A program made the position numbers and the translations under genes. The notes under the pieces are model-generated. The model did no database searches, had not been told where the DNA came from, and saw only the letters and a program-made list of their open reading frames with translations. DNA of 64,000 bases. It comes from Salinicola halimionae (GTDB lineage: Bacteria; Pseudomonadota; Gammaproteobacteria; Pseudomonadales; Halomonadaceae). This document shows, in pieces, positions 55,715 to 64,000 of the stretch (the first letter of the stretch is position 1; each line of letters opens with the position of its first letter). The stretch covers positions 609,545 to 673,544 of the forward strand of contig NZ_PZJQ01000002.1 in NCBI RefSeq assembly GCF_003206065.1, read 5' to 3'.

Positions 55715-56764
55715 TCATATCAGCTTGGCTGCCACCAGCAGGTCGGCGACGGACTGGAAGGTACCATCGGGAATCGGCTCCCCATTGCCGGCACGTCTGG
55801 CAATGCTCTCGGCCAGCTCGGCATCTGCCGCCCGGGGAATATGACGGGGAATCGAGCTTGTCAGTAGATCGGCCGCCTGTGACGGATCTGCCTTGCAGGT
55901 GACCAGCGGCACTGGTGTTTCGCCACGCACATAGCGGATGCCAACCAACCATCCATCTTCGGTGCCGATCATCATCGAGGCATGTTGTACGCCGACCTTG
56001 GCATTCAACTGATGCATTTCACGGCGACGTTTGCGGCGCTCTTGGTTCATCGTCGGATCGCCTTCCTGATCCTTGCGTTCGCGCTTCTGCTCGGTCTTGG
56101 TCATGCGCTGGTCCCGCCGAAACAGCCAGCGCTGCAACATCACGTCGAAGCCGCCGACCAGCAGAAACGCGATCAGCGCGGTGATGACCAGTGGCTGCAA
56201 TAGATCGATGAAAGTGCCCTGGATGCAACCGAAGCCGCAGCTGGAGGATTCCATCAGCGATTGCAGACCGAGCCGGTACACGATGATCAGCGCAACGGCC
56301 AGGGCCAGCATCTTGAAAAGCGACTTCAGAAACTCGGTTAGGCCGCGCACCGAGAAGATACGCTTGAAACCCTGTATCGGGTCTATCTTCTCCGCCTTGG
56401 GCAGCACCGGTTCGGTGGCGAAGACGAAGCCCTGCGAGACCACGATATTGGTCAGTACGATGATCACGAAAGTGAGTGCCACCAGCGGCACCACCGACAG
56501 CAGCAGAACTTCTCCCGCCTGCGCCACCAGCCGCGGCCACAGCGAGTCGAAGGGTTCGGTGTAGAGCCGCGCTGTCATGTCGAGCAGGTCCTGAACGCGC
56601 GCGATGATGTCGCTGGCACTGACCGCGAGGTACAGCGTGCTGGCCAGCATTACCATCGCCGTGACCAGGTCCGCGCTTTTGGAGACCTGGCCCTTTTTGC
56701 GCGCATCGCGAAGTTTCTTCGTCGATGGCGGTAGTGTCTTCTCTTCGGAAGGTTGCTCGCTCAT
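55715..56764 (-). CDS. sctU: Type III secretion export switch protein SctU lacking NPTH
   Basis: A 349-residue member of the YscU/HrcU/FlhB family that gates substrate export. The N-terminus (EEKTLPPSTKKLRDARKKGQ) and four transmembrane segments are normal, as is the linker with KRERKDQEGDPTMNQERRKR. In the cytoplasmic domain the strand is MMIGTEDGWLVGIRYVRGE, followed by TPVPLVTCKAD. Aligned with family members, the autocleavage tetrapeptide N-P-T-H is replaced by T-E-D-G. The end (IPDGTFQSVADLLVAAKL) is standard. It lies 34 bp after the large translocon-like gene. Confidence 0.9.
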   Translation of the reverse strand: MSEQPSEEKTLPPSTKKLRDARKKGQVSKSADLVTAMVMLASTLYLAVSASDIIARVQDLLDMTARLYTEPFDSLWPRLVAQAGEVLLLSVVPLVALTFVIIVLTNIVVSQGFVFATEPVLPKAEKIDPIQGFKRIFSVRGLTEFLKSLFKMLALAVALIIVYRLGLQSLMESSSCGFGCIQGTFIDLLQPLVITALIAFLLVGGFDVMLQRWLFRRDQRMTKTEQKRERKDQEGDPTMNQERRKRRREMHQLNAKVGVQHASMMIGTEDGWLVGIRYVRGETPVPLVTCKADPSQAADLLTSSIPRHIPRAADAELAESIARRAGNGEPIPDGTFQSVADLLVAAKLI

Positions 56765-56798: not shown

Positions 56799-59700
56799 TC
56801 AAGCCATTTGGGTTTCGAGGTTGCTGCCGTCGCCGGCGTAATCTTCATGATCGAAATCGTCCCAGCCCGATTCAGGCAAGTGTCCTTCCTGGACGTAGAA
56901 TTCGTACTCGTCGCTGCGGTACTCGAAAATACTTACGTCGTCCGGAGCATCCCGCTGGCCGTAGTTCTGCATGTAATCTTCGAGAAACTCGTAGCGGCTC
57001 AAGCCATCTTCGGTCAGCAGGCCGTCCTCGTCCAGAGACGTGAAGAGATCCTTGAGATCGGCTTCATGGCCCTCGAGTGCGTTGGTGCGCTTGATGTCCT
57101 GCACGATGGAGAACGGCAACGTCGCGAGCGTCAATGCGGCGGATACCCAGAAAAGCGGGCCGGTGGCGGCGCGAGCGACGGCAATACCCTTGAGCGCCGC
57201 GAGTGAGGAAGCGCCGCCGGCAAGGCCGAAGGCACCGGCGGCGACGGTCACGGCGCCCTGGCCGATGGTGGCGCCATCGCCACTATCCGCGCCGCGCTTG
57301 ATCATCAGCCCGCCGAGCGCGATATCCAGCGCGCCGGTGGCCGAGTTGGCTGCGCCATCCAGAACCCTCAGGAAGGAGCTGACGGAGCGTGTCGTCGTGG
57401 TGGCGTCAGGCAATGCCGGGTTCTTGGCGAATCCGTCCTTGGCGCCTTTGACGACTTTCCCGGCGTCGTCATAGGAGATATCCAGTTTCTTGGCCAGGGT
57501 CTCCTGATCGCCGACGGGAGCATCCTTGATGATCTGCTGCATGTTGTCGCTGAAGCGCTCCCACGTATGGGGGGTGGGAGCGGGTGCCTTACCCTTGACC
57601 TTGTCGTCGCCCCAGATCTGCGGCAGCGTCTTGTCGAGGCCCAACATGGCGTTGACGTTGGTGCCATTAACCTTGTCGATGATGTTGCTACCGAGATTGA
57701 CGAAATGCTGGCTGGCGCCGAAGAAGCTGATGAATTCCTTGGCGATCGCCATGCGCCCCTCGGTGGTATCAGCGAGTGAACCACCCTTGCCTGCCAGCTG
57801 GTAGATGCCGGAGGCGAGCGAGATCAGACCGCCGGCCGAACCCAGCGCCCCGTTGCTGTTGAGCGTGCCGATCAGCGACATCATCCCGCCGTTGGTCTTT
57901 TCGTTGAGCGCCTTGTAGACGCCATTCTTCATCAGGCCGTCGATGTCCTTTTGGGTGATCGAGCCATTTTTCTGGAAGCGATCCCCGAGCTCCTGCAGCG
58001 CTTTGCCGAAGTTCTTCGCCGTCTGCTGATCGTTGAGGTATTCGTTGACGAACTTGTCGATCGTCTCCGCCGTGCGTCGTGGAATATCGACGCCCGCGCG
58101 TTTGAGCGCGGTCAGAACGGTCTTGACCACGTCCTGAGTCGCGGTGGCGGTATTGGCGTCGTTGATCTGGTCGGGGTTGGCGATCAGGTCGTCGAGATCG
58201 GTGACCATCGAATCGACCTGCAGGTTCTGGGCAAACTCAGCTGCCTTGTCGGTCTCGTCGGTCGCCGGGAATAGCGCAGCGAGGGCATTGTAGGTCTTCG
58301 AAATATCCTCTTCGGCGAGCTCGCTCTGGCCGCTCTCGCGCAGGTCGTTGATGTAATCGATGTATGCCTCGCTGAACGCCGTTTCCTCCAGCTGAGAGGC
58401 GATATCATCCTTGTGGGTGACCTTGTCGATGGCACCTTTCTGCGCCCCTGCGTAATCCTTCTGCACGGCGTCGGAGGCAAACAGGTCGCCAAGCCGGGCA
58501 TCGAGTTTTTCGCCATCGACGATCGATGACAGATCGTCGCCGCTAGCGTGATCGAGACTCAGCCCCTCGGAGATGTCGAGTCCGACCAGGTCCAGACCGT
58601 TTTCGAGCGCGCCCTGGGCGCGCAGGGCTCGGTAAAATTGAGCGCGCTCATCGTTCTTGTCGATGCTGCCGTCCTCGATGCCCGTCTTCCAGTCCTTGAT
58701 CAGATTCTGCCAGGTCAGTTCACTGACCGTCAGCTTGCGTGAGCTGTCGTCGGGGTCGGTTTCGCTGGTCTCCATCGCCTGAATGTCGACGTCGCTGAAG
58801 GTTGGCAGATCGTGATCACGACGCGCGGTATCGAGCTCTGCGTTGTCGGCGAGGCGTTGGGTATTGGTCTCACCGCCGTGCTTCGACCAGTAACCGTCGA
58901 AGACGTTGGTGACCTTGTCGCCATCGTCGCCCGCGGCACTGCCGATGCGCGCGCGCAGATCGTCGTTGACCTGGGTCACGGCATCGCTCGGGCTGACGCC
59001 ATCTTTAATCTTGCTGTCGATCAGGTTCTGGTAGAGCTGAGACAGCGTGTCGGAGCTGTCGATATGCAGGATGTTGCGCGTATCGGTGAGCGTGCCACCC
59101 GCCATGGCGGAGGCCAGCGCGTTGAGATTGTCCTCATAGCTCGGATTGTCGGTCAGCGTGGTATCGGCGAGGAAATCGTCGTAAGCCGCGTAGCCGGCGT
59201 CGATGGCATCGTTCTTGCCGCCGTGACGCTCCCAGTAGCCGTTGAAGACGTTGAGACCGTCATCGCTATCTTTTCCGGTATTGCTTAGTGCGTTGCCGGT
59301 GCGGTCAAGCAAATCGCTCTTGGCGTCGTCGATCGCAGATTGCAGATCCGGTGCTTCGCCGCGTTCACGTTGCTGATTGAGTAGATATTCCACCAGGTGG
59401 CCGAACTGCTCGCTGGCGCCCCCGGTCAGCGGTGTCACCGTACGATTGTCGATATCGATGCCTTCGGCCATGTCGGATGAGAGCGAGTTCAGCGTATCGT
59501 CGTAAGCAATATCGGCCTCGTCGCGATTGGCCAGATAGCTCTCCTCGGCCAGTGCCTTGGCATCGTCTTCGCCGCCATGGCGGTCCCAGTAACCGTCGAA
59601 GACATTGGTGACATCACCACCGCCGACGCTATCGATGCGCGAGCGCAGGTCGTCGTTGACGCGATCCATGGCTTCCTGAGTGTCATCGCCCTGACCGATC

Positions 59701-60359
59701 CGGTCCTTGATCAGGTTCTTGTAGAGCTGGGAGAGCGTGTCGGAGCTGTCCAGATGGAGGATGTTCCGGCTGTCTGTCAGCGTGCCGCCCGACATCCCCA
59801 GGGCGAGGGCGTTGAGGTTGTCCTCGTAATCCGGATTGTCGATCAGCGTATGGGTGCTCAAGAATTCCTTGTAGGCGTCATAACCGGCGTCGCCGGCCGC
59901 CTCTTCACCGCCATGGCGCTTCCAGTAGCCCTCGAAGACGTCGAGGCCCTTGTCAGCACTCTTGCCGGCGCCGTCCTTACCAAGATCGCCCAGCGCGTTG
60001 CCGATACGATCGAATAGCGCATCCTTGGCCTTGTCGATTGCCGCGCCCAGGTCCGCCTTGTCGCCGCGCCCATGCTGGGCGTTCAATTCGGCCGAAACGA
60101 GTTTCTGAAACTGCTTGGCGGCATCGCCAGTCAGCGGTGATACCTTGCGTTTGTCGATATCGATGCCATCCGCCATGTCCGTCGCCAGCGAATTCAGCGT
60201 GTTCTCGTAATCCTGGCTTCCCGGCTCGAGGCTCTCTTTCTTGGCGTCGTCATTCCGCTCGGCCAGCTTCTGTGCCAGCTTGAGAATGGAAGAAAAGGCC
60301 GGATTGATACCGGAAGGCATGATGCTCTTGTCCAGGGTGACTTCATCGTTGACGCGCAT
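56799..60359 (-). CDS. HrpK/HrpF/NolX-like putative type III translocon protein
   Basis: A 1186-residue acidic protein. Residues 51-510 consist of four modules in the order A-B-A'-B' (51-177, 178-285, 286-407, 408-510), each ending in a VFxGYWxxHGG-type motif (VFEGYWKRHGG, VFDGYWDRHGG, VFNGYWERHGG, VFDGYWSKHGG). The central part is helical and hydrophilic. The last third has hydrophobic stretches (LGSAGGLISLASGIYQLAG, TGALDIALGGLMI, ATGPLFWVSAALTLATLPF). This layout resembles HrpF/NolX and HrpK, plant-associated translocon proteins. There is no Sec signal. The family call is from pattern, not search. Confidence 0.7.
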   Translation of the reverse strand: MRVNDEVTLDKSIMPSGINPAFSSILKLAQKLAERNDDAKKESLEPGSQDYENTLNSLATDMADGIDIDKRKVSPLTGDAAKQFQKLVSAELNAQHGRGDKADLGAAIDKAKDALFDRIGNALGDLGKDGAGKSADKGLDVFEGYWKRHGGEEAAGDAGYDAYKEFLSTHTLIDNPDYEDNLNALALGMSGGTLTDSRNILHLDSSDTLSQLYKNLIKDRIGQGDDTQEAMDRVNDDLRSRIDSVGGGDVTNVFDGYWDRHGGEDDAKALAEESYLANRDEADIAYDDTLNSLSSDMAEGIDIDNRTVTPLTGGASEQFGHLVEYLLNQQRERGEAPDLQSAIDDAKSDLLDRTGNALSNTGKDSDDGLNVFNGYWERHGGKNDAIDAGYAAYDDFLADTTLTDNPSYEDNLNALASAMAGGTLTDTRNILHIDSSDTLSQLYQNLIDSKIKDGVSPSDAVTQVNDDLRARIGSAAGDDGDKVTNVFDGYWSKHGGETNTQRLADNAELDTARRDHDLPTFSDVDIQAMETSETDPDDSSRKLTVSELTWQNLIKDWKTGIEDGSIDKNDERAQFYRALRAQGALENGLDLVGLDISEGLSLDHASGDDLSSIVDGEKLDARLGDLFASDAVQKDYAGAQKGAIDKVTHKDDIASQLEETAFSEAYIDYINDLRESGQSELAEEDISKTYNALAALFPATDETDKAAEFAQNLQVDSMVTDLDDLIANPDQINDANTATATQDVVKTVLTALKRAGVDIPRRTAETIDKFVNEYLNDQQTAKNFGKALQELGDRFQKNGSITQKDIDGLMKNGVYKALNEKTNGGMMSLIGTLNSNGALGSAGGLISLASGIYQLAGKGGSLADTTEGRMAIAKEFISFFGASQHFVNLGSNIIDKVNGTNVNAMLGLDKTLPQIWGDDKVKGKAPAPTPHTWERFSDNMQQIIKDAPVGDQETLAKKLDISYDDAGKVVKGAKDGFAKNPALPDATTTTRSVSSFLRVLDGAANSATGALDIALGGLMIKRGADSGDGATIGQGAVTVAAGAFGLAGGASSLAALKGIAVARAATGPLFWVSAALTLATLPFSIVQDIKRTNALEGHEADLKDLFTSLDEDGLLTEDGLSRYEFLEDYMQNYGQRDAPDDVSIFEYRSDEYEFYVQEGHLPESGWDDFDHEDYAGDGSNLETQMA
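58830..60209 (-). repeat. A-B-A'-B' internal protein repeats
   Basis: Coding repeats of a unit of about 230 residues, present twice; each unit has two related halves of 105-125 residues. B and B' share GGTLTDSRNILH/GGTLTDTRNILH and DSSDTLSQLY; A and A' share MADGIDID/MAEGIDID. All four halves end in the GYWxxHGG motif. The structure implies an old half-unit duplication followed by a more recent duplication of the whole unit. Confidence 0.85.
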
Positions 60360-60569: not shown

Positions 60570-61388
60570 TCAGCGCATCGCGCCGAGAATGGCTTCGAGG
60601 CGGCCCATGTTGAGGTCCACGATATCGAGCTGATCGACCATCAAGGGAATCAGGAAGACCACGTAGATCAGCATCAGGAAGGCAAACAGCAGGTTCTTGA
60701 TCGGCAGCGACAGGTCGAAGGCGTGAAGATTGGGCGCCATTCTGGCGACGTAGGCCAGCATCAGATCGGCAATCAACAGCGCGATTACCAGCGGGGCGAT
60801 CATCAATACGCCAATCTGCATCACCTGATCGAGCAGGCCCAGCAAAGCCATGGCCGAGGCTTCCGACATCAGCGGCACGAAGTCCACTGCCGGCCACAGC
60901 GCGTAGCTGCGATAGAAACCATCGAGCAGCAGCATGAAACCACCGGTGATGAAAAACAGCGCCAACAGCGTGATCGTCAACAGCGTGGAAGTCACGCCCG
61001 TTTCCGTGGCGCCCATCGGATCGACGATCTGCGCCATCGTCGAGCCGCGCTGCAGATCGATCAGCTCACCGGCGACCTCGGCGGCCCAGAACGGCACGCC
61101 GAACACCAGGCCAATGGCGACGCCGATCAGCAGCTCCTTGATCACCATGCCGGCGACGCTGAAGCTGGACAGCCCGTCCGCAGTGGACATGGCATCGAAT
61201 AGCGGCACGATCAGCGGAATCGAGATCGTCACCGCCACGGCGGAGCGGATCATGCCGGTCAGGCCGAGGCGGTTGAACGCCGGTGTCACCAGCACCATGC
61301 CCAGCGCCCGTGCCACGCCGACGGCCGCTGCGGCGATCAGCGGATACGCGAACTGGGTCAGGAACTGGGCAAAATCTTCGTAGTTCAT
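60570..61388 (-). CDS. sctT: Type III secretion export apparatus protein SctT
   Basis: A 272-residue membrane protein of the YscT/HrcT/FliR family, part of the export gate with SctR and SctS. About six hydrophobic segments and the conserved region FWAAEVAGELIDLQRGSTMA followed by VDPMGATETGVTSTLL identify it. It follows sctS by 30 bp. The order sctR-sctS-sctT is universal in these systems. Confidence 0.95.
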   Translation of the reverse strand: MNYEDFAQFLTQFAYPLIAAAAVGVARALGMVLVTPAFNRLGLTGMIRSAVAVTISIPLIVPLFDAMSTADGLSSFSVAGMVIKELLIGVAIGLVFGVPFWAAEVAGELIDLQRGSTMAQIVDPMGATETGVTSTLLTITLLALFFITGGFMLLLDGFYRSYALWPAVDFVPLMSEASAMALLGLLDQVMQIGVLMIAPLVIALLIADLMLAYVARMAPNLHAFDLSLPIKNLLFAFLMLIYVVFLIPLMVDQLDIVDLNMGRLEAILGAMR

Positions 61389-61418: not shown

Positions 61419-61688
61419 CTAGCGCGACCAGGCGGCAAAATTATCCAACACCTGATCGGCAATATTGACGATCTGCCCGGCCAGCAGCGGTCCCGAGAGA
61501 ATCAGCACCAGCAGTACCGCGACCAGCTTGACCGCCTGCGGTAACGTCTGGTCCTGAATCTGGGTCAACGCCTGCAGCAAACCGACCCCAAAACCCACCG
61601 CGATCGCCACCAGCAGGGCAGGCGCAGACACCAGCAGCACCGTCCACAGGGCGTTCTTCATCAGCGAGAGGAAGATATCGTCCGTCAT
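61419..61688 (-). CDS. sctS: Type III secretion export apparatus protein SctS
   Basis: An 89-residue protein with two transmembrane helices (NALWTVLLVSAPALLVAIAV and LVAVLLVLILSGPLLAGQIV) and the conserved loop LLQALTQIQDQTLPQAVKL of the YscS/HrcS/FliQ family. It starts one base before the sctR stop region ends, so the two are tightly linked. Confidence 0.95.
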   Translation of the reverse strand: MTDDIFLSLMKNALWTVLLVSAPALLVAIAVGFGVGLLQALTQIQDQTLPQAVKLVAVLLVLILSGPLLAGQIVNIADQVLDNFAAWSR

Positions 61689-61689
61689 C

Positions 61690-62349
61690 CTAACCGCCTC
61701 CGTAACTCAGAATCAGACCGTGCATCAGTCGCGACCAGCCATCCACCGCCACGAACAGGAAGATCTTCAGCGGAATCGAGATCAGGGTCGGCGACACCAT
61801 CATCATGCCCATCGCCATCAGTACGTTGGAGACGATCAGGTCGATGATCAGAAACGGTATGTAGAGAAGGAAGCCGATCTCGAAGGCCCGGGTCAACTCG
61901 GAGCTGACGAAAGCCGGTATCAGCACGATCAGGTCATCACTCTTCAGATCCTCGCGCGCCTCGTCCGACCACAGCGTGCGGGTGGCATCGATGAAAAATG
62001 CTCGCTCGCGCTCGCTGGCGTAGCGGGACAGATACTCCTGCAATGGCCCCCGAAGCGCCTCGCCGGTCTGCTTGATCTCCTCGACGTTGGCCAATCCCGC
62101 CGAGCGCTGTTCGAACTGGTGGGCCATCTCCCCGATCAACGGCGTGGTGATGTAGACCGTCAGGATCAGCGCGATGCCGTAGAGCACGAGGTTGGGCGGT
62201 GTCTGTTGCACGCCGAGGGCATTGCGGATCAGGAACAGCACCACCGAGATCTTGAGAAAGCCGGTCATCGTGACCACCGCCAACGGCACCAGGCCGATGG
62301 TGGCAACCACGATGATGATGGCGATCAGGTTGGGCTGAAACTCAGTCAT
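61690..62349 (-). CDS. sctR: Type III secretion export apparatus protein SctR
   Basis: A 219-residue membrane protein of the YscR/HrcR/FliP family. The segments TGFLKISVVLFLIRNALGVQ, QTPPNLVLYGIALILTVY, LIVLIPAFVSSELTRAFEIG and MGMMMVSPTLISIPLKIFLF are diagnostic. It lacks the N-terminal signal peptide of flagellar FliP, which favours a non-flagellar system. The ATG at 62349 lies inside the end of sctQ (8-base overlap), so it is translationally coupled. Confidence 0.95.
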   Translation of the reverse strand: MTEFQPNLIAIIIVVATIGLVPLAVVTMTGFLKISVVLFLIRNALGVQQTPPNLVLYGIALILTVYITTPLIGEMAHQFEQRSAGLANVEEIKQTGEALRGPLQEYLSRYASERERAFFIDATRTLWSDEAREDLKSDDLIVLIPAFVSSELTRAFEIGFLLYIPFLIIDLIVSNVLMAMGMMMVSPTLISIPLKIFLFVAVDGWSRLMHGLILSYGGG

Positions 62350-62647
62350 CCCCGGCAGGTCCCGTCTCGAGCGAAAGCCTTTCGATCTGTACTCCGATGG
62401 CATCACCGATGGCGATCAGCCGCCCACGCCCCATGCGCTGGCCGTTCACGACCAGATCGACGGCCCGTTCCGGCTGGCGCTCCAGGGGTAGCACGCTGCC
62501 TTCACCGAGCTTGCGCAACTCGCCGAGCGACATGTCCAGCCGGCCCAGCTCGCAGGTCATCTGCACCGGCAGGCTATCCATGGCCGCGTCGGTTTCCGAC
62601 GGCGCTTGGGTTGGCGATTCGGATTGATCCACAGGGGGTTCGCTCAT
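62342..62647 (-). CDS. Possible internal translation product SctQ-C
   Basis: A candidate 101-residue protein from an in-frame ATG within sctQ (beginning MSEPPVDQSESPTQAPSETD), preceded by the purine-rich AAGAGAG six bases upstream. It would contain a linker and the last SpoA domain. Equivalent internal starts are known in YscQ, Spa33 and SsaQ, where the short form joins the full-length protein in the sorting platform. Expression here is unproven. Confidence 0.5.
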   Translation of the reverse strand: MSEPPVDQSESPTQAPSETDAAMDSLPVQMTCELGRLDMSLGELRKLGEGSVLPLERQPERAVDLVVNGQRMGRGRLIAIGDAIGVQIERLSLETGPAGDD

Positions 62648-63541
62648 GACGCTCTCTTCGTGGGATGGATTCGAGTTTGGCTCGGGATGATTCGCGATCA
62701 ACGGGCCGGTGGCTTTCAGCCCGGCTTCGCTGAAACGGGCGCGGCAACTGAAGCGACCGGCCAGATTCAGCTGGACCTCCTCTACTGTTGCCGTATCGAG
62801 GATGACTACGTCGCCGGAGCGCAGGCTGCGAAACTCACCCAGTGTCAGCATTTGCTTGCCACACTCGACCCGAAGTGTGGAAATGACGCCATTGGCCGGC
62901 GCTCGCTGTGCCGGAAAGGCATGGTCGAACTGTGGCAACAGCCGTTCGGCAACCGGAACGGCAAGATCGAGGGTCAACGGGTGGGATTCGCCGTCGAGCT
63001 CGAGAGTCAAGCATAGACGCATGGTGTGAGCGGGCGGCTTCGGCTCGCCGGGCAACAGGCGTATCTCCGCGTTCAATGCCGCTTCCAGCGGCTCCAGCCA
63101 CTCGAGCCACACGACCTCCAGCCACATGGCGGCCAGCTCGGCATCGACGTCATCCAATTCACGACGCCGGTCGGGATGCTGACCGAGTCTATCGAAGGCT
63201 CGAGCATTGCCGCTCAGTGTCAACCGTTCCTCGCCAAGGCAGAGCGTGATCGCTCGTGCTTCTCCGAGGGCTAGGCGTTCTTCGAGGGCTGGAGACTCTT
63301 CGACTCGCGCTCCCGCCGGGAGCAGTCGCAGGCTGGCCGCACGGCCGTGCCAGTCGAATTCGAGCGGCTGACGAGCCACGTGCAGCGCGTTATGCAGCGC
63401 GAATCGGGAAGCCTCGACATGTGGCAGTGCCGATATCGACAGCGGGATGACTCGGGCCGCTGTGGCATCGTCCGGCGAGCCGGCTGTTTCAAACAAGGGC
63501 CGGGATCGAGCCGCGGCTGGGGTCGATGACAGATTCGTCAT
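62342..63541 (-). CDS. sctQ: Type III secretion sorting platform (C-ring) protein SctQ
   Basis: A 399-residue YscQ/HrcQ-type protein. The N-terminal two thirds are divergent; a SpoA domain is near residues 250-290 (LTLGEFRSLRSGDVVILDTA) and a second at the C-terminus (LGRLDMSLGELRKLGEGSVL, then VDLVVNGQRMGRGRLIAIGD). The ATG overlaps the sctO stop (ATGA). An in-frame ATG at 62647 with AAGAGAG upstream could start a separate SctQ-C of 101 residues. Unlike in P. syringae, the gene is not split into hrcQA and hrcQB. Confidence 0.9.
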   Translation of the reverse strand: MTNLSSTPAAARSRPLFETAGSPDDATAARVIPLSISALPHVEASRFALHNALHVARQPLEFDWHGRAASLRLLPAGARVEESPALEERLALGEARAITLCLGEERLTLSGNARAFDRLGQHPDRRRELDDVDAELAAMWLEVVWLEWLEPLEAALNAEIRLLPGEPKPPAHTMRLCLTLELDGESHPLTLDLAVPVAERLLPQFDHAFPAQRAPANGVISTLRVECGKQMLTLGEFRSLRSGDVVILDTATVEEVQLNLAGRFSCRARFSEAGLKATGPLIANHPEPNSNPSHEESVMSEPPVDQSESPTQAPSETDAAMDSLPVQMTCELGRLDMSLGELRKLGEGSVLPLERQPERAVDLVVNGQRMGRGRLIAIGDAIGVQIERLSLETGPAGDD

Positions 63542-64000
63542 GTGAGATCTCCTCGCCCCTGGCGTGCCTCTTCTATCTCCAGCTCCGTCAGTCGCTCGGC
63601 ATTGACCGCCATGGCGCGTTGTCGATCGGTTTGCAGACGTTCCAGCGCACGCTGGGCGCGCAGGCGTCGAGCCCATTCGGTGGCCTGTGCATCGCGCTCT
63701 TCTTCGGCGAGCTTGAGATGACGCATCTGCGCTCGGCGTTCGTGAAGCAGCGTTTCTCGATGCGCGGCGTCGTCGGCCATCGTTTGTTGCCAGTCGGCCA
63801 GCGCTTCGGCATTGAGCAGGCGACTTTGGCTTGAGTCGAATTGTGCCTGTTCCCGCTGATTGGCGCTGCGCTGGTGTTCCACCAACGACTGCTCCAGCGC
63901 CTGGTACTGTGCTGTCAGGTCTCTGCACTGGCGCTGACCTGTCGCCAGGGCTTCCTCGGCCAGACGCGTGCGCTGACGCCGCAGCTGCATCAGACGCTCG
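63538..64000 (-). CDS. sctO: Type III secretion stalk-like protein SctO, partial
   Basis: At least 150 residues of a highly charged, helical coiled-coil protein rich in Glu, Gln, Arg and Ala (RRQRTRLAEEALATGQRQ, LAEEERDAQATEWARRLR), which fits the YscO/HrpO family that couples the ATPase to the export gate. The frame stays open to the window edge (codons for E-R-L precede the first visible Met), so the true start is outside. The stop overlaps the sctQ start. Identification rests on position and composition. Confidence 0.7.
   Translation of the reverse strand, partial: ERLMQLRRQRTRLAEEALATGQRQCRDLTAQYQALEQSLVEHQRSANQREQAQFDSSQSRLLNAEALADWQQTMADDAAHRETLLHERRAQMRHLKLAEEERDAQATEWARRLRAQRALERLQTDRQRAMAVNAERLTELEIEEARQGRGDLT

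Follow-up and report, generated by a model that had tools for sequence, protein, structure and literature searches.

The type III export-gate protein SctU encoded in the 64,000-nucleotide window that we analysed (C4:609545-673544 of Salinicola genome G000) has lost its N-P-T-H motif, and this loss is a trait of the Rhc lineage of type III secretion systems, which is also without the ruler and gives no HrpJ-family gatekeeper match over cut-off. In the standard account, SctU/FlhB autocleavage at NPTH, coupled to the ruler, switches the apparatus from building to delivery; the ruler SctP senses needle length, and cleaved SctU changes specificity. We put at about 0.75 the probability that the Salinicola system has neither SctU cleavage nor a ruler-driven switch, an estimate that overlaps the first of the alternatives weighed below. 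The sequence-only reading of this DNA had suggested that the export gate is not switched through cleavage. This still seems likely, and it is strengthened because SctP is missing from the same loci and HrpJ does not exceed its cut-off in the same genomes; the finding is also larger than was first noted, in that it concerns a lineage.

The NPTH slot of the Salinicola SctU

The features of the protein that matter here are as follows.

55715..56764, minus strand: sctU, export-gate protein without NPTH, 349 aa (open reading frame; PF01312, E 2.7e-76; FlhB/SpaS alignments)
56054..56086, minus strand: KRERKDQEGDP linker, residues 227-237 (KRERKD and GDP invariant in the homologue alignment)
55952..55963, minus strand: T-E-D-G codons, residues 268-271, the slot that is N-P-T-H in FlhB/YscU (alignments; 30 homologues)
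55907..55924, minus strand: GETPVP, residues 281-286, the strand following the slot (invariant in 30/30 homologues)

The sctU frame is open and starts with ATG. Pfam Bac_export_2 (PF01312) covers residues 7-343 with 257 bits against a gathering score of 24.4, and the NCBIfam SctU model TIGR01404 scores 273 bits against an equivalog cut-off of 358 and is still the best NCBIfam model for the protein. In five printed alignments to solved FlhB/SpaS chains, TEDG lies beneath NPTH or NPEH with no gap nearby. The protein is thus homologous over its full length to the self-cleaving FlhB, YscU, EscU and Spa40, but unlike them it has no N-P-x-H. The replacement of N-P-T-H by T-E-D-G between well-aligned strands in an otherwise intact protein, as the sequence-only reading described it, is confirmed by these alignments, by the extent of the Pfam match and by the conserved flanks and linker. 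Two AlphaFold2 predictions, each from nine rows, had mean pLDDT values of 49.0 and 50.4, too poor for use.

Close relatives were read to see how far the loss extends. The first eight named loci (six from Salinicola, 91-96% identical, and two from Halomonas, 59-60% identical) were followed by 250 Halomonadaceae genomes, among which, counting the window's own, 32 carry a close SctU homologue (55-100% identity), clearly separated from the FlhB-like matches, which stay below 30%. NPxH is missing from the slot in all 32. Thirty of the homologues were returned whole, all of 349 aa (one row, L025, contains two unknown residues); the other two are those of G134 and G016. In these, G267, W272, V274, G275, R277, Y278 and GETPVP are invariant around the slot, and the slot itself varies: position 268 is T, A, G or E, 269 is any of seven residues, 270 is D, G, E or S, and 271 is G or D. 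TEDG is kept in Salinicola relatives of at least 91% identity; more distant relatives have other, variable residues. Since no slot residue is conserved, none there could support an alternative cleavage chemistry. Nor do the 30 homologues hold a conserved N-P or an alternative NPxH in the cytoplasmic part, where an N-P dipeptide occurs at position 293 in three and at 314 in one; a cleavable motif elsewhere, which could have overturned the original proposal, was thus looked for and not found. We suggest that what was a self-cleaving turn is now an ordinary one of variable sequence, probably in a beta hairpin, and that SctU most likely stays one chain.

Purifying selection acts on the rest of the gene. 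A sample of ten genes, 76-96% identical to that of the window and including three from other genera, gave dN/dS values of 0.119 for the membrane part, 0.055 for the linker part, 0.140 for the slot and 0.154 for the C-terminal part.

The same genomes carry a second member of the Pfam family, which differs in keeping its motif. This FlhB-like protein, taken as flagellar from its score and identity, has NPxH in all 11 Halomonadaceae genomes checked (G000, G016, G027, G029, G037, G038, G055, G072, G107, G128 and G160; NPTH in nine, NPSH in two), among them the window's own (L001, NPTH), and NPTH or NPSH also in the order relative G874. The window's genome further contains, apart from flhB, a 105-aa frame (L003, G000:C6:1424454-1427672) that matches only the FlhB C-terminal part and that we presume to be perhaps of the FlhX type.

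Motif loss along the Rhc branch

The genes upstream of sctU place it in a type III cluster.

56799..60359, minus strand: 1186-aa open reading frame with repeats, lying between sctT and sctU; may encode a secreted protein of HrpK type
60570..61388, minus strand: sctT (PF01311; TIGR01401 over cut-off)
61419..61688, minus strand: sctS, 89 aa, between sctR and sctT (as query, matches an open reading frame in the same place at other loci)
61690..62406, minus strand: sctR (PF00813; TIGR01102 over cut-off)
62342..63928, minus strand: sctQ as called, with a likely start at 63541, beside the sctO end (FliMN_C; TIGR02551 over cut-off)
63538..64000, minus strand: sctO-position gene, 160 aa, beginning just outside the window (L012:13083-13565; after sctN; no family match)

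Read from sctD (with a Y4YQ_C domain), the order is sctD, sctV, the RhcC2 half and the RhcC1 half of the secretin, sctJ, sctL, sctN, the sctO-position gene, sctQ, sctR, sctS, sctT, the 1186-aa frame and sctU. With sctC, D, J, L, N, Q, R, S, T, U and V all in one cluster, this is a non-flagellar type III system; every core gene has a family match except sctS, which was identified from its position and its homologues at other loci, with the first secretin half below its Pfam cut-off and sctN below its NCBIfam equivalog cut-off. The secretin is split, L012:18065-18940 matching only the SctC N-terminal part and L013:345-1739 having the secretin domain, and this split together with the Y4YQ_C domain points to the Rhc family. 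The 1186-aa frame contains four repeat copies about 108-127 residues apart and has no Pfam or NCBIfam match; it is a candidate for the HrpK-like gene that is expected in Rhc subgroups II and III. Its homologues lie near sctU in other Rhc-type loci, in a place relative to sctU that varies among genera, and none was found in the subgroup-I-like stretches read.

Within the Rhc family the cluster most resembles subgroup II (P. syringae T3SS-2 and NGR234 pNGR234b), whose reference strains are known here from the description by Gazi et al. 2012 (PMC3574062). Common to both are the split secretin, an FHA/Y4YQ_C-type SctD, the lack of sctP, a large open reading frame near sctU and the order N-O-Q-R-S-T; the Salinicola system differs in its halophile host and in having the large frame between sctT and sctU. 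Its SctU shares a clade with S. meliloti plasmid SctU and scores close to the SctU of a genus that is probably Pseudomonas (that of genome G817). Subgroup I (RhcU of S. fredii and Bradyrhizobium) is 34-36% identical to the window protein and likewise lacks NPTH, with a slot one residue shorter in most, and the subgroup-I-like loci read have no sctP either. On our reading the Salinicola SctU is the export gate of an Rhc-family, subgroup II-like type III secretion system.

Wider searches used overlapping draws of 369 class, 390 order and 398 phylum genomes and 249 genomes of the probable Pseudomonas genus, and from each search the best 15 to 30 matches only were read as loci. A close homologue (E 1.7e-145 or lower) occurs in 24 of the 249 genomes of the probable Pseudomonas genus, and NPxH is missing in 24/24. 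It is also missing from plasmid SctU of Halomonas sp. PA16-9, S. meliloti (two), K. pneumoniae, R. etli Mim1, B. guangdongense, S. fredii CCBAU45436 and S. alkalisoli, from the phylum members L112-L118 and L122, from second copies in G1151 and G1222, and from a more distant M. mediterraneum SctU (L223) outside the tree sample. The K. pneumoniae plasmid (L103, NZ_CP142387.1 162536-166567) is typed conjugative and carries a rhizobial-like sctR-S-T-U whose SctU is 44% identical to the window's. In Rhizobium sp. N871, R. phaseoli N931 and R. sophoriradicis CC511, SctU is only 265 aa long and ends before the turn, so that the whole C-terminal part is missing (L111:1483-2280, L221:11983-12780 and L222:1983-2780); a pectate lyase gene adjoins these subgroup III genes, and Gazi et al. 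note an HrpW-like gene in R. etli subgroup III (PMC3574062). A trait confined to Salinicola is rejected by the motif-less homologues in other genera: what might have been peculiar to one genome marks the Rhc branch of type III systems. For the same reason self-cleavage, which the sequence-only reading gave as defining the YscU/HrcU/FlhB family, cannot define SctU as a whole.

Other slots are altered too. L045, L047 and L049 form a separate group in which the motif is lost and one residue deleted, L048 has AGAQ, and NPTR stands in place of NPTH in L046, L096, L098 and L099. A family member, L137, has NPTQ. NPTH is retained in two rhizobial systems outside the Rhc clade, those of R. etli IE4803 and B. 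diazoefficiens pNK6b.

Mapping NPTH on a tree, a check proposed at the outset, was done with the motif columns removed from the alignment and the probable-Pseudomonas sequences outside it. The window's SctU and 26 others make one Rhc clade (support 100/95), none with NPxH; one of these 27, L111, ends before the slot, and L111 and L122 are long branches about whose join the tree program warns. L045, L047 and L049 form another clade (100/99), and L048 stands beside the Rhc clade (97/65). Parsimony gives two changes of the motif, and trees with a single NPTH-less clade are not rejected in the AU test (p 0.155), which together indicate one or two losses of NPTH.

Ruler and gatekeeper genes

In the window's cluster sctO abuts sctQ and leaves no room between them for sctP, which is absent from its slot. 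An SctP model gives no match at E <1 in the loci that span this cluster (L012-L014), and no HpaP match was found in the window's genome at E 0.01. In the first set of loci the interval from sctN to sctR is 1395-1768 bases in 19/19 NPTH-less loci, which fits sctO and sctQ only, and 1865-2979 bases with a third gene in 17/17 NPTH loci (in L185 the third gene is of 152 aa and overlaps sctQ). These third genes are of the ruler type: all eight that were compared with Pfam (seven from NPTH loci and one from the NPTR locus L182) match HpaP or Flg_hook, if weakly in L145 (E 0.009) and L185 (E 0.0017), and of six compared with NCBIfam five match YscP/HpaP models below cut-off and L145 matches none.

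The SctP model was built from 18 third genes, 17 of which are recovered at E <1e-8 when left out (L185 gives E 0.78). With it SctP is recognised in the NPTH loci L184 and L138 too, and no NPTH-less locus scanned has a match at E <1; L101, scanned separately, gave noise only (best E 0.7). In a held-out set from the probable Pseudomonas genus, SctP was found in 6/6 NPxH loci (five NPTH, one NPNH; E 2.7e-10 to 3.6e-4) and in 0/6 NPTH-less loci, nor was it found in the R. phaseoli locus, where sctN is followed directly by sctQ. Interval lengths overlap in this set, L234 (NPTH-less) having 1889 bases and L227 (NPTH) 1452, the latter because its sctR frame was called with an early start. Among the sctN-sctR intervals in view SctP is thus present in 23/23 NPxH injectisome loci vs 0/26 NPTH-less loci. 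Outside this count are six NPxH loci with no model match whose sctN lies outside the stretch (L146, L147, L157, L183, L187 and L189), L190 and L191 (NPTH, no match) and the NPTR loci L186 and L188. For L178-L180, of the separate NPTH-less group, and for L181, absence of SctP comes from the model and the genome search only, since a different gene order or an sctN beyond the stretch makes the interval uninformative there.

L190, with NPTH, an sctN fragment and sctR, was considered as an exception and set aside, since its interval holds an FlgD-domain gene and the locus looks flagellar. That gene (L190:17851-19131) is a 427-aa frame between FliM/N-type and FliJ-like genes in a second locus with an FlhB, and its product may be a fusion of ruler and hook-cap protein. 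A transglutaminase (TGL) domain gene precedes sctQ in the separate NPTH-less group (L178:13437-14663 and L179:5120-6517).

Genome-wide, HpaP (PF09483) was found at E 0.01 in 17 of the 18 NPxH genomes, 16 over cut-off and none in G817, in the NPTR genome G448, and in one of the 25 NPTH-less genomes (G105, on a contig other than that of its sctU); the match in G1257 likewise lies on a contig other than that of the sctU read, and flagellar FliK may account for some of the other matches. HrpJ (PF07201) exceeds its cut-off in 14/18 NPxH genomes vs 0/25 NPTH-less genomes, and also in the NPTR genome; in 8 of these 15 genomes the match does not share a contig with the sctU read or is distant from it. 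For the window's genome there is a single HrpJ match, below cut-off and on another contig, and the control Bacillus subtilis gives a match below cut-off as well. Joint loss of NPTH and SctP amounts to one independent pair (the starred branches) or two, and on so few we do not claim that the association is significant.

That SctP is missing from the Rhc family is already published: Gazi et al. (PMC3574062) report an hrpP/yscP-like gene to be absent from all Rhc subgroups, and the Rhc rows of their table have no entry where Hrp1 rows have HrpJ. A literature search that covered few subscription papers returned no report of a rhizobial SctU/RhcU without NPTH and no paper with both RhcU and NPTH, RhcU being named in PMC3574062; the one phrase match for a lacking NPTH, in PMC3040844, concerned Xanthomonas deletion constructs only.

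How an uncut gate may work

Mutant studies in Xanthomonas, as given in PMC3040844, frame what the loss would demand. N264A in the NPTH of HrcU blocks secretion of translocon and effector proteins and not that of an early substrate, so that compensation must exist in NPTH-less systems. Y318D, a single change in the HrcU C-terminal domain, bypasses the ruler and uncouples late export from it, which implies that a change in the C-terminal part can free the gate from the ruler. Secretion of every class of substrate (pilus, translocator, effector) by one strain with such a gate is on record. S. fredii CCBAU45436, a soybean symbiont whose SctU (L106) lacks NPTH, is one of the strains reported in PMC6865838, where eight Nops appear in the medium: NopA, B, C, D, I, L and P from both strains, and NopX missing only from CCBAU25509. 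Those authors regard NopA, NopB and NopX as injectisome components and the other Nops as possible effectors. Dependence on the type III system was tested there in CCBAU25509 only, whose rhcN mutant still showed NopA outside the cells, and the SctU that we read is that of CCBAU45436.

With cleavage, SctP and the HrpJ-family gatekeeper absent together, the classical switch would be missing as a module. In the version that we prefer, a one-mode gate exports pilus, translocator and effector proteins alike, and whatever order there is in export would be set by other means, such as gene regulation, chaperones or SctV. It is possible, though in our judgement doubtful, that SctU is uncut and the gate still switches, the hairpin or C-terminal part being reshaped on a pilus-finished signal from a partner other than SctP; absence of cleavage is common to both accounts. 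Purifying selection on the C-terminal part (dN/dS 0.154), the invariant GETPVP and W272, and the ruler-independent late export of the single-change Xanthomonas HrcU (PMC3040844) would suit such reshaping, but we have no candidate for the signal protein, and subgroup III does without the C-terminal part altogether. That SctU reaches the same two-chain form through a cut at another site or by a protease is improbable, given the lack of a conserved N-P in the cytoplasmic part and of a conserved slot residue on which one chemistry could act.

Decay of the system, with NPTH loss as the sign of a dead gene, is very improbable. In a relative of the window's genus, G134, sctU does lie in two reading frames (L236, G134:C1:1774000-1776000), but the constant 349-aa length of the 30 whole homologues and the low dN/dS reject decay for the family, long open frames are found for the remaining core genes of the cluster in the window, and the NPTH-less S. 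fredii CCBAU45436 is reported to secrete (PMC6865838). As for a sequencing or assembly error at the slot, the same loss in separately sequenced species and genera excludes it, together with a local frameshift, which had been judged unlikely from the start; we regard this explanation as refuted.

We thus favour a one-mode gate, and we lean slightly towards its broader form, in which the Rhc branch, in halophiles, pseudomonads and legume symbionts alike, has dropped the whole switch module (SctP, the gatekeeper SctW and SctU self-cleavage, and in subgroup III also the SctU C-terminal part) and uses one gate mode for early, middle and late substrates. The prediction for such systems is that SctU is not cleaved and that needle length is not set by a ruler. 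Intact systems with neither cleavage nor ruler would make the purpose of the switch testable by comparing natural systems, and plant symbionts that are easy to work with carry systems of this lineage. If this broader form is true, the switch is not a necessary part of the type III injectisome.
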